From: Sycon ciliatum
Lineage: Eukaryota; Porifera; Calcarea; Leucosolenida; Sycettidae
DNA: 64,000 nt
Reading direction: 5' to 3'
Assembly: GCF_964019385.1 (NCBI RefSeq)
Contig: NC_088643.1
Span: 9,975,909 to 10,039,908, forward strand
Below, piece by piece: positions 24,963 to 63,766 of this stretch. The translations under genes and the position numbers were made by a program. How positions within the stretch are numbered: position 1 is the first letter of the stretch; each line of letters begins with the position of its first letter. The notes below the pieces were generated by a model, which worked only from the letters and a program-made list of their open reading frames with translations, was not told the DNA's origin and searched no databases.

Positions 24963-25569
24963 CTACGTTCCGATGAAGAAGGTTTCCTGCACGATGAGCA
25001 GCTCGTCCATGGTAACAGTGCTCAGGAAGAGGCACTGTAGATAGTCTTCTAGGGAGATCTTGAAGCGGCACAGCTTCAGCGTGAGCGCACCGAGACGCTC
25101 GCTTCTCTGCATGTCCAGCCAGGCGCAGAGCCGGTCCCGGTCCAACGGCGCCGCCTGGTTCGTCCAGCCGGGCACCTCCGCCTCGGTCGGTCCCCACAGC
25201 GTACACTGGAAAGCCCGCAGCGCTTCCTTCACCGTTGCCCGTTCGGAGAGCTTGGGCATGCACAGGCGCCTGCACACGCGCTGGAAGACGGCCAGCACGG
25301 AGATGTCGATGACGCTGCGCATCAGCATGCCCAAAGAGTAGGCGTCGCATCCCGAATAGTCCAGCTCCTCGGCGCGAAGGTGCAGGCGGATCTCCGGCGG
25401 CAGTATGTCCGTTCGGCGTGGCGTGACAACGGTCTGCTGTGCGGAGCGCTTGAACACGAGCTTCTTGGCCTGGTCTGAACCGCCCTGGCCGGAATTGGGC
25501 GAGGATGGCAGTGAGAGAGCATGGCCGAAGCTGGTGAGCAGCACGCGGTCACCATTGCGGATTGGCGAC
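24963..25569 (-). CDS. PEAK1: PEAK-like exon 3: pseudokinase C-lobe and SHED helices
   Basis: Acceptor TGTATCAG; stop TAG at 24965-24963. The DFG motif is replaced by SFG (residues about 1406-1408). PPEI stands at the APE position and DAYSLGMLM in the F helix. TLWGP, LCAWLDMQRS and ISLEDYLQCLF are hallmarks of the PEAK C-terminal dimerisation helices. With exon 2 this removes all three canonical catalytic residues. Confidence 0.92.
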
Positions 25570-27603
25570 CTGATACAACAGGGAGAACAAAGAAAGAAAC
25601 ACACCTACTATAATCACCTATTGTATACGTGCATTAATCAGCTTTCATAAGCACAATCATGTTGCATCCTGCCGTCGACACAAAGTGAACCTTAAGTCAA
25701 AAGATGGTTGATAAATATGGTGGTAAAGACACACCTGGCAATATGGCGGTAAACACACGCCTGCTCACACACGCTCTCTAAGCGGCAAGGTTCTAGCACA
25801 GAGCTCTCCTTCTCACCACCACCACCATCAGTTCGCGCCTGGCGTATTTCCATATTTATCAACCATAAGTACAGCTGCAGTGGTGTCTTCAACTTCATTC
25901 TCCCGAGTCCAGCTCCGTATGAAGACATCCAAGAAGAAGATTGCCTGATGAGTCCAGCGGGGACGAAACGTACGTCGCAATTGAGCTATGTCGCTGCTGT
26001 GTCATCTTCTATGTGCCATGCGCTACTTGATGTACCAGCCTGCTATGTCGGATACCGCTAACCATGCATCGACTAGGCGCCAGGCGCGAACTGATGGTGG
26101 TGGTGGTGAGAAGGAGAGCTCTGTGCTAGAACCTTGCAGCTTAGAGAGCGTGTGTGGGCAGGCGTGTGTTTACCGCCATATTGCCAGGTGTGTCTTTACC
26201 ACCATATTTATCAACCATAAGTACAGCTGCAGTGGTGTCTTCAACTTCATTCTTAAGTCTAAAGAGCTGCATCAATATCCAAGCTGCTGTACGCAGAACA
26301 TTTTGCATTGTTCCATTTGGAGTTGCTTAAGCAAAATTAAGGGGATGGCAAAGGAAATTGAGAGGAGATCATCGCTCTTACAATCCAATGTTAAAAAGCT
26401 CTTTGTGTTTGTATAAAATAACGAGAGTGATTGAAAGCCCATGAGCTCTCGCTATGCTTTTTTTTAGGTATGTACCTCCTCCCGTACATTCTGCAACCTT
26501 TTCCAGCTGGCTTGTAATGCTGTATGCACCCCGTACGCACTGACCTTTTGTTCCATTGGCCTGGGTAGCTTTATGTGACTCATCATTGGCGCCCGACTTT
26601 TCGCTCGAACCCACAACCCTGTGAGTTCAACCCACGACCCTCAATTCATCGTCCCGTTCGTCCTCAGCAACCGCCGTTCGTCTAGTTATCAATAATCCTC
26701 GTCTCGTCTACCGTATTTCCCCGATTATAAGTCGCACTTGATTATAAGTCGCAGCCCATTCTCACGTCCGAACCAAATCGTCTCAATGCATTCACATAAG
26801 TAAGAAGTCACACTCGATTGTAAGTCGCACCCCCTTCTTTGCCCTTGACGTTTAGTGTCAAAAGGTGCGACTTACAATCGGGGAAATACGGCATGTCAAC
26901 CTCGTCTCGTTTAACCATGCAGGTCAGCTGTTTTCTTTGTTTCTCCCTTTCTTTTTCATGTGTCCTTCTTCGTCCATTTTTTGTGTTTTTTTTTGCGATT
27001 ATTTTATTGTGGTGTGCATGCATGTACACGTGTGTCCAATCATGTAATCTTAGTGGTCTGATCATGGTGATCCACACTCTATTATTCATGTTGGCGGGCC
27101 GGATTAGAAGTGTAACCATGCTGCTGTAGCCGTGCCACGCAGTATGCAATGCTCCTTGTCAAGTCTAGGTGTTTCAGTTGTACTTCGAAGCACCATTTTT
27201 TTTGAAGGGGTGTCTGGCCCGCCGTTGTTGGGAACTACATTTGTATTGTTTACGCTATCTTGGATGATGCGCGTACCTACTTTTTTAAAAGTACAGGAAT
27301 AAGATAATTGGTGTGCCTGTTGGTATAACACTTTTATGTGATCCGTGCATTGTGTGTGTGTGTGTGTGTGTTTTCTCTTCATCCTCAATCATTTTTTTCT
27401 CTATCTTCTCATCGTCTTATTATTGTCCGCAAGGTCGCGGTTCTTGTTTTTTGCGCAGGGGAGGTATGTTAGGTACCTCCTGCCGCACATTCTACAACCT
27501 TTTTCCAGCTGGCCTGTAATGACGCACTCATCTTTCGTTCTGTTGGCCTGGGTAGGTACTTGCGCGCCAATATTTGCCATAGCTCCCCAGGCCCTTTATC
27601 TTG

Positions 27604-61414: not shown

Positions 61415-61455
61415 CAAGCAGTTAGTACGTTTCGGCAAACTGCCCTCATCAGGTA
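61415..61455 (-). ncRNA. Degenerate hammerhead motif of the Penelope-like element
   Basis: Minus strand has CTGATGA, a short GC-rich stem II with loop AGTTT, and GAAAC, but the cleavage triplet GTC is absent (GTACTAAC follows) and stem I does not pair. It lies about 300 bp after the GIY-YIG stop, where Penelope-like elements carry hammerheads. I regard it as a relic. Confidence 0.5.
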
Positions 61456-61751: not shown

Positions 61752-62281
61752 TCAAAGAAATCCCCAGCCAGCATTGGTGTTGATTTGAGGTCCCAAGGTC
61801 CTTATCTCCACAGCTTCTCGCAACTTTCTGCTCGCTCGGTCACCTTCTCTTGCTAATACCGACATGTCCGCAAATACAGCGTCCCCCAGCGCTAGTCGCT
61901 TCCGGGCATGCTTGGTGCGCATGTGCTCACCCCACGGTTTGTCACGGGTACGGCGGCGTGCTTCTCCATTATGCTCAATCAGTCTAGTTTCCAAAGATCT
62001 CTCAGTCTCCCCAACATAATTTTCTGTGCACCACTTGCATCGCAGATGGTAGAGAACATTCTTTTGCATGCATGCTTGCTCTCCTCCGGACTTACAAGTC
62101 AAACACGGACCTAGTGGACGGCCTCGTCTCCTGCCTTGAGTAATATTTGGCTCCTTGACACATGTGGGTGGTGACTGTGCAGAGTGACACAGTTGGCGAC
62201 GGAGACCGCCTGAAGGTTCATAAACAACCCTCACCGGTAATTTATACCTCCGAATGGCTTTACTGACCTCATGATGGATTT
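61752..62281 (-). pseudogene. GIY-YIG endonuclease domain of the Penelope-like element
   Basis: Frame reads KLPVRVVYEPSGGLRRQL, then a Cys pair (PCLTCKSGG), then LYHLRCKWCTENYVGETERS and LETRLIEHNGEARR, the GIY-YIG signature (YxL...YVGET...RxxEH) with the CxxC type zinc motif seen in Penelope endonucleases. Continues EHMRTKHARKRLALGDAVFA to the stop at 61752. A TAG stop lies just upstream (about 62286-62288), so the polyprotein is dead even ignoring insertions. The apparent start is not real; the domain was part of a fusion with reverse transcriptase. Confidence 0.88.
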
Positions 62282-62305
62282 GATCAGACTAGAGTGGCAG
62301 TTTAA

Positions 62306-63766
62306 CCCTTTAACCGTCAGACCATACATTTGTGGGTCGAATTCGACCCATCATTTGAAATACTCGCACTGGATTGATTTTTTACCCACGATAGAAAATT
62401 TACTATCGATTCGGTCGCGAATTTTCCAGGCTTTCTGTTGCAGAAATCCGCGTTGAGCTACGATGTAGTGGAGCAGAGTTATCAAGCGCTGAGTACTGCA
62501 CGCTTGTCACTTCCGCTGCGCTGGGCGCGCGGCTGACGTCGTCACGGGATTTCCCCGTTTCTTCACGCGCTCTGTGACTTTTGCTCGCGACCAACGTATT
62601 CCTCACGAAATGCTCGATCTCTCAAAAAAATTTGAACACTCTACGATGAAGGAGACGGCCATGGCGGAGTTTTGAACTTGTCATTTGCATGCCTGGCGTT
62701 GAGACGACGTCGCTGCGTTCCAGCGCTGGTTGTGTGACTGCTGAGGCGAAGAATGTGGTATCATCGTGCTGGTCTCGTCCAGAGCTTTCCAACGAGCCCA
62801 AGATTATAAAAATCGAGTGAGTACAACTACAGTTATGACCTGGCAAAGTTGAAATTTCGTTCGGCGTTTCAATGGGTGACATTTATATGACGGTTAAAGG
62901 GGAAGTTAAGGCAAAAATTAAAATTTCACCAGTTGTAGTCTTCGGGGTGCTGAGTCGAATGGTCTTGGTCCGAGGAAGCTGAGACGCTCCCTTCCTACTT
63001 GAATCCCAATCGAACCCGCGCACTTCCACCGAAACTGGGTGACTGCGCCCTACTAGATGGGGATTTGTATGCAAAATGTCACTAAAAGCGCCATTTCGTT
63101 CTTATAAAAGCACGGATGACCGCGATTGGCCCATATGTTGTAGTCTTTGGGACGCTGAGTCGACTGGTTTTGGTCCGAAAAGGCTGCGATGCAGCGTTCC
63201 TCCTTTATTCCCAATCGAACATGGTTGAAGAAGCGGTCACGTGGTCCTGGGTGCCCAAATCACCTGGTCACCACGCCAGCAGGTGACAACTTTCACACCA
63301 AGGTTCAACTCGGGTTCAACTCGAGTGACAGGACTGCACCCAAAAAAGGTCAAACAGGCTAGTAAGTTGTACCCTGCAGGCACGGTGACCAGGTGACTGG
63401 TGTACGCAGGAGCACGTGACCGCTTCTTCGACCATGTTCGATTGGGAATAAAGGAGGAACGCCGTATCGCAGCCTTTTCGGACCAAAACCAGTCGACTCA
63501 GCGTCCAAAAGACTACAACATATGGGCCAATCGCGGTCATCCGTGCTTTTATAAGAACGAAATGGCGCTTTTAGTGACATTTTGCATACAAATCCCCATC
63601 TAGTAGGGCGCAGTCACCCAGTTTCGGTGGAAGTACGCGAGTTCGATTGGGATTCAAGTAGGAAGGGAGCGTCTCAGCTTCCTCGGACCACGACCATTCG
63701 ACTCAGCACCCCGAAGACTACAACTGGTGAAATTTTAATTTTTGCCTTAACTTCCCCTTTAAAGGG
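62306..63766. mobile_element. piggyBac-like MITE interrupting the Penelope-like element
   Basis: Termini CCCTTTAACCGTCA (62306-62319) and TGACGGTTAAAGGG; the last is split by the inner element so that AGGG lies at 63763-63766. TTAA flanks at 62302-62305 and 63767-63770. Without the inner insertion it is about 596 bp. CCCTTT ends with TTAA are the piggyBac pattern. Confidence 0.82.
62898..63758. mobile_element. TTAA-flanked foldback element, copy 4 (nested)
   Basis: 861-bp member of the AGGGGAAG family with termini AGGGGAAGTTAAGGC and TTAA flanks (62894-62897, 63759-63762). It used the TTAA inside the terminal repeat of the outer piggyBac-like MITE. Confidence 0.9.

Follow-up and report, generated by a model that had tools for sequence, protein, structure and literature searches.

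The locus described here raises the question of how a hammerhead ribozyme came to lie inside a palindrome, beside an exon of a protein-coding gene, in the sponge Sycon ciliatum. The question extends to the route by which Penelope-like elements (PLEs) insert, to the origin of their inverted repeats and one-end tail, and to the enzyme that moves retrozymes; these matters are addressed here through the window, the whole 64,000-nt stretch of DNA analysed, and through related copies elsewhere in the 538-Mb genome. It was already known that retrozymes exist and may use PLEs. Arrays of tandem units that each contain a hammerhead are given as the hallmark of animal retrozymes in passages of PMC7229834, and PLEs are called strong or likely candidates to move them, from co-occurrence and likeness, in parts of PMC7229834 and PMC7761336. 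An excerpt of a PLE curation guide (PMC8969392) describes tandem copies, inverted pLTRs and 3′ extensions, and states that retrozymes may rely on PLEs.

At 25939-25982 on the forward strand, the window holds a full-length match to the Rfam model of the type I hammerhead (RF00163), which scores 34.0 bits, equal to the gathering score, with E values of 6.9e-6 in a 4-kb search and 1.1e-4 when the whole window was searched. The earlier note had described a well-formed hammerhead with all core bases, and the model match bears this out: the core (CTGATGA, GAAA and GTC) is complete, and both the 6-pair stem I (GATTGC/GCAATT) and the 4-pair stem II (GTCC/GGAC) are present as described. The outermost pair of stem I is a G.U in the window copy, because the last ribozyme base is T instead of the C carried by the majority of the family. 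The known hammerhead rule places the predicted cut at 25976/25977. A minimal 3-pair stem III had also been proposed; a short stem III is present (ACGTACGT) but is better read as two pairs with a palindromic GUAC tetraloop, since a third pair would leave a 2-nt loop, and in a dimer this stretch could form eight pairs. Folded alone, the 44-nt ribozyme has a minimum-energy structure that is not a hammerhead and whose energy is no better than that of shuffles; because fold energy gives no support, the assignment draws on the covariance model and the other copies, which confirm the hammerhead as real at the level of sequence.

The surrounding palindromic element, as it had been called, exists as such, with inverted arms of 141 nt at 25704-25844 and 26078-26218 (99% complementary) and an exact 52-nt direct repeat, but the palindrome proves to be the two arms of one retrozyme insertion. 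This insertion occupies 25704-26251 (548 bp) between 13-bp target duplications with one mismatch, CTTAAGTCAAAAG on the left (25691-25703, 12 of 13 bases matching the right copy) and CTTAAGTCTAAAG on the right (26252-26264), neither of them assigned a strand. The 352-nt spacing of the direct repeat defines a full unit at 25850-26201 (+), which we number from 25977, the first base past the predicted cut. BLAST against the unit places the left arm at 25704-25844 on the minus strand, where it runs from unit position 242 to 102 in reverse, lacks the hammerhead and has its outer end at site A, one of the two fixed end positions defined below. The right arm (25850-26251, plus strand) comprises ~1.14 tandem units, from unit position 226 to ~275, and has its outer end at site B, the alignment overrunning the first 2 nt of the duplication (to 26253). 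A 5-nt filler without strand (25845-25849) separates the arm alignments, and an internal copy of the A-to-B interval, or tail, its bounds taken from the outer ends of 28 insertions, is found at 25866-25901 (+). From this layout, the insertion is a copy of an animal retrozyme with a 352-nt unit, and a non-autonomous one, because such a unit has no room for a protein gene; the reverse transcriptase and GIY-YIG domains by which PLEs are recognized are accordingly missing. Since the window copy has only one hammerhead, its transcript could be cut once but should release no unit-length RNA on its own.

The placement in a PEAK-family intron agrees with the neighbouring open reading frame at 24963-25604 (−), which matches the PEAK1, SgK223 and PRAG1 chains (E 6.5e-6, 1.8e-4 and 8.3e-4); the insertion adjoins this exon of a minus-strand gene and is intronic by the order of the reading frames. 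The ribozyme lies on the opposite strand, antisense to the PEAK-like gene, and so would not be expected to cut its pre-mRNA. A short inverted repeat at 26711-26891, with TATAAGTCGCAC motifs and 27-nt arms (96%), probably marks a further small mobile element in this intron.

A DNA search of the genome with the unit gave at least 168 matches from the best 40 of 1634 candidates, many of them spaced 352 bp, which bears out the expectation of copies elsewhere. The same family form is seen in 60 of 75 complete hammerhead copies. We compared the window copy with 37 loci (L052-L088) from these best 40 candidates, weaker copies lying outside the sample, and obtained 37 insertions; L069, L070 and L071 are one insertion and were counted once, L087 holds two, and a third fragment at L079 was excluded from the end counts. 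Neighbouring hammerhead cores in the compared loci are 352 nt apart in 59 of 67 spacings, and at least two cores stand in one arm at 23 of 36 loci (strict pattern, with the second L087 insertion excluded). The earlier suggestion of a circular-RNA-producing family is thus supported by the retrozyme mark of 352-bp tandem hammerhead arrays, for the family though not for the window copy with its single hammerhead.

What sets these insertions apart is the regularity of their ends. Target duplications of 10-18 nt (median 13) flank 32 of the 37 insertions. When flanks were swapped between loci, only 4 of 1332 pairs scored 9 or more, a cut-off equal to or slightly lower than the score of the weakest of the 32 duplications; without six loci at or near simple repeats, 0 of 930 pairs scored as high. 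Two arms are present in 30 insertions and a single arm in seven. The two-armed form is head-to-head, a minus array followed by a plus array with the 3′ ends outward, and in BLAST of the arms against the unit the outer ends behave like 3′ ends of cDNA. All 28 two-armed insertions with a duplication have one end at site A, ~241 (ends at unit 231-243), and one at site B, ~277 (270-287), with no A/A and no B/B pair; were the ends independent and even, the chance of this would be 2^-28. BLAST ends put the two sites 27-53 nt apart (median 37.5), so that the Penelope-type pattern of two sites ~30-40 nt apart, one per outer end, recurs in 28 of 28. Site A is on the left in 15 and on the right in 13, and inspection by eye of 32 target sites, with base counts from 28, revealed no rule for the side that receives A. 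The ranking of loci favoured a 404-nt match, whereby at least one long arm per locus was partly selected; we see no way in which it could have selected one A and one B end.

The remaining two-armed loci, L059 (no duplication) and L086 (a 5-nt match only), each combine an A end with an odd end. The seven one-armed insertions end at B in five cases and at A in two, and four have duplications; two arms are therefore the rule, not a necessity. When the unit is folded as a circle, a CAACC loop holds or adjoins site A, though a single fold is weak evidence; the tail stretches fold no better than shuffles, and we make no structural claim about the tail.

The window also contains a candidate for the type of helper. 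A fragment at 61752-62288 (−) matches the GIY-YIG domain (PF01541, E 0.0011) with 19.7 bits, below the curated cut-off of 22.6, and would represent the GIY-YIG end of a PLE. A minimal hammerhead-like core of this copy (CTGATGAG..GAAACGTA) was recognized by eye at 61426-61452 (−), its stem I seemingly decayed; the Rfam search of the whole window did not report it, and many other copies align to this stretch (query 829-894 or 835-894). By eye, a ~1.4-kb insertion with a long palindrome (62330-63760) interrupts the fragment between its apparent linker and GIY-YIG parts. Relatives of the PLE, scored for the best 40 of 463 candidates, form head-to-head arrays with a period of ~2935-2938 bp (~2.94 kb), such as three minus followed by three plus copies at C1:97.53-97.54 Mb.

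We examined the ends of five loci of the 71%-identity subfamily that have pieces on both strands among the matches listed (C1:2.62, C1:97.5, C14:5.23, C1:30.9 and C8:10.98 Mb, the left end of the last by eye); seven loci of this subfamily with one visible strand and six both-strand loci of other subfamilies (C3, C4) lie outside this set. All five are head-to-head, with one end at ..CTGTAATT(C) and the other past ..CACCGCTTC, 31 nt apart by script motifs and 34-36 nt with the bases up to the duplication included (by eye). Duplications are 12 nt in four (three by script, C8 by eye), and the fifth locus lies in a (TAA)n repeat. By sequence, then, the five PLE insertions follow the same end rule as the retrozyme. 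The retrozyme unit is ~8 times shorter, and its tail sequence differs from that of the PLE examined; both contain CTGCAG, which we judged likely to be chance, and a kinship of the tails was set aside. Since the tails are not clearly alike, this PLE stands as a candidate for the type of helper and does not point to a helper family. Elsewhere on C1 (G000:C1:78524351-78539579), six PLE copies stand in a row at 2935-bp spacing with equal match scores, as if the autonomous element were likewise copied round a circle.

Variants within the arrays speak to the template. Sixteen columns vary in eight or more unit copies. After removal of duplicates, and with insertions treated separately, units of one arm differ in 63 of 3456 cells and units from the two arms of one insertion in 43 of 2213, as against 46231 of 154567 between insertions. 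The two arms carry an identical haplotype in 22 of the 25 two-armed insertions that share at least three variable columns (five of the 30 share too few), the exceptions being L084 with one differing column, L069 with two and L082 with a gap; by comparison, identity over ten columns or more is seen in 42 of the 666 pairs drawn from different insertions. Among variants private to one insertion, at positions with at least two units, 14 occur in all units, 151 in one and 6 are intermediate; four of the 14 fill every unit of both arms. Each insertion was thus copied from one template sequence, in both arms and as a rule repeatedly.

The hammerhead itself differs less between insertions (7 of 1628 cells, against 156 of 11497 elsewhere, p 0.0007), whereas within insertions the differences are alike (17 of 5489 and 136 of 44332; both contrasts jointly p 0.03). 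This contrast is weakened because related insertions repeat the same variants. Distinct variants shared by at least two insertions number 0 in the 44 hammerhead columns and 20 in the other 308 (p 0.15), and all distinct variants number 7 and 57 (p 0.84); the pattern is suggestive, and we do not claim selection on the hammerhead.

Tandem hammerhead units, target duplications, outward arms, A-plus-B ends, a single haplotype and the shared PLE rule, all read from the genomic sequence itself, fit a mobile repeat that probably spread as an RNA circle. We consider it probable that each two-armed insertion arose by twin priming, a PLE enzyme starting at two fixed sites on one circular RNA, with the palindrome as its scar. 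Transcripts of arrays with at least two hammerheads would cut themselves into unit RNAs, which would be closed into circles. A PLE protein, combining GIY-YIG endonuclease and reverse transcriptase, would then make a staggered cut in the target; one target strand would prime from its 3′ end at site A, and the opposite strand from its own 3′ end at site B of the same RNA circle. The cDNAs would make between 0.1 and 9.3 circuits each (9.5 in L086). Their inner ends would be joined with little or no homology, and the product would be an array in head-to-head form, flanked by target duplications. The window copy would accordingly represent a short twin-primed product of 0.4 plus ~1.1 units.

The inner ends are consistent with such copying. 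They are scattered over the unit and show no excess at the predicted ribozyme cut (2 of 63 lie within 10 nt of it, where 3.8 would be expected), a site that copying passed in 19 of the A arms and 25 of the B arms (28 of each), bearing in mind that one long arm per locus was partly selected. The lengths of A and B arms are uncorrelated (Spearman −0.12, p 0.54), and joints have 0-4 nt of overlap in 16 of 28 cases and 1-14 nt of filler in 12. Inner ends are over-represented at unit positions 189-202 (11 of 67 in this 14-nt window, P 0.01); might this be a pause or drop-off site?

Some observations sit less easily with this scheme. Three of the 25 arm pairs differ in haplotype, and L059 and L086 have their odd ends. 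In vitro, the Anolis PLE protein cuts both strands of its target and extends each of them, with two adjacent start sites bounding the tail, but its start sites are alike on top and bottom strands and hammerhead mutants still insert (PMC11167929), so that the in vitro work would predict neither strict A/B pairing nor circles. The twin-primed template could instead have been an uncut linear multimer transcript, the hammerhead serving other steps only. Insertion by hammerhead mutants fits this, as does the lack of excess ends at the predicted cut, and a long multimer transcribed from a uniform array could itself yield uniform arms. An aged array, however, should place unit-specific variants in both arms, and none of five testable variants (those carried by several units but not by all, where both arms cover the position) occurs in both; nor does a linear template explain the origin of uniform arrays of up to 9.5 units. 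We regard it as unlikely.

A different explanation comes from rotifer Penelope, which has inverted pLTRs, one of them with a tail; palindromes at head-to-head joints led to the proposal, in passages of PMC3846280, of self-priming with an antisense template, in which a cDNA end folds back and copies itself into an inverted arm. This predicts arms mirrored at the joint, yet paired inner ends fall within 10 nt of each other in only 1 of 28 insertions (1.7 expected), and it predicts no second fixed 3′ end, whereas A and B occur together in 28 of 28. Fold-back is largely refuted for the sampled copies and seems to us very improbable, and the insertion signature favours twin priming on one circular RNA over self-priming. 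Hardly any credence is left for ordinary satellite expansion, in which unequal exchange and rearrangement would have enlarged and inverted insertions that were short at first. Although tandem arrays can grow in this way and a variant in three of ten units of L075 hints at some exchange, in 32 of 37 insertions the duplications lie directly at the outer ends of the complete array, the ends are fixed sites, and scattered loci as well as PLE arrays repeat this form.

The family shares with animal non-LTR retrozymes, as portrayed in parts of PMC7229834, the type I hammerhead, tandem units of 150-450 bp (here 352), target duplications of more than 4 bp (here 10-18 nt in 32 of 37) and the company of PLEs bearing minimal hammerheads. 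Those passages describe tandem repeats, whereas the arrays here are mostly head-to-head with two fixed end sites, and they give a G+C content typically 'below 50%', against 51.7% in the window unit; we take low G+C to be a usual, not a defining, retrozyme trait. With PLEs the family shares head-to-head inverted pLTRs and a 30-40-nt tail at one end (PMC11167929 and parts of PMC3846280 and PMC8969392), as well as, on the proposed reading, the cutting and extension of both target strands seen in vitro (PMC11167929). Target duplications are put at 8-10 nt for rotifer PLEs in a portion of PMC3846280, compared with 12 nt in the PLE copies here.

There is an even chance, in our estimate, that retrozymes of this kind and autonomous PLEs alike insert by regular, site-specific twin priming on circular RNA with both cDNAs rolling, in which case the PLE tail would reflect the distance between start sites in an asymmetric enzyme dimer, and pLTRs and tandems would derive from the ribozyme-made circle. 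In LINE-1 twin priming, the same RNA also serves the second target strand as template, which leaves an inverted 5′ part; there the second start is variable, whereas here both starts are fixed and the template appears to be read round repeatedly.

Our literature search found neither the A/B end rule nor the one-template result in print, nor any paper combining 'retrozyme' and 'head-to-head'; papers with 'twin priming' and 'Penelope' concerned other matters, judging by titles and abstract openings. A paper from 2021 on green-algal and invertebrate PLEs reportedly discusses related non-autonomous elements and may overlap with the present findings. The family amounts to a natural record of insertions on a 352-nt template, with 37 compared and further candidates at hand, in which each two-armed insertion displays both start sites, the cut and both cDNA lengths; the one-A-one-B rule is sharp and can be counted in other genomes.

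A second hammerhead family (L001-L021) has a longer stem III (CAGUUCUG) and was rejected as the same element, its unit being different. It resembles 20 of the 21 loci that an Rfam search of the genome listed from the best 74 of 76236 candidates, the window hammerhead not being among them. This family may use a different helper and may offer an internal contrast. At L014, ~125 bp from its hammerhead, lies a one-armed copy of the window retrozyme family (833-1375), of 1.5 units and ending at site B, without a clear target duplication abutting it; this copy is outside the counts of the 37 insertions. Tandem second-family units of ~226-228 bp are found at L002, L003, L004, L017 and L019, with a 281-bp spacing at L017, and the copies at L003, L004 and L019 end just past the ribozyme at GATTGA. 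The one two-armed second-family copy seen, at L019, has both ends at approximately the same site, counter to the A/B rule.
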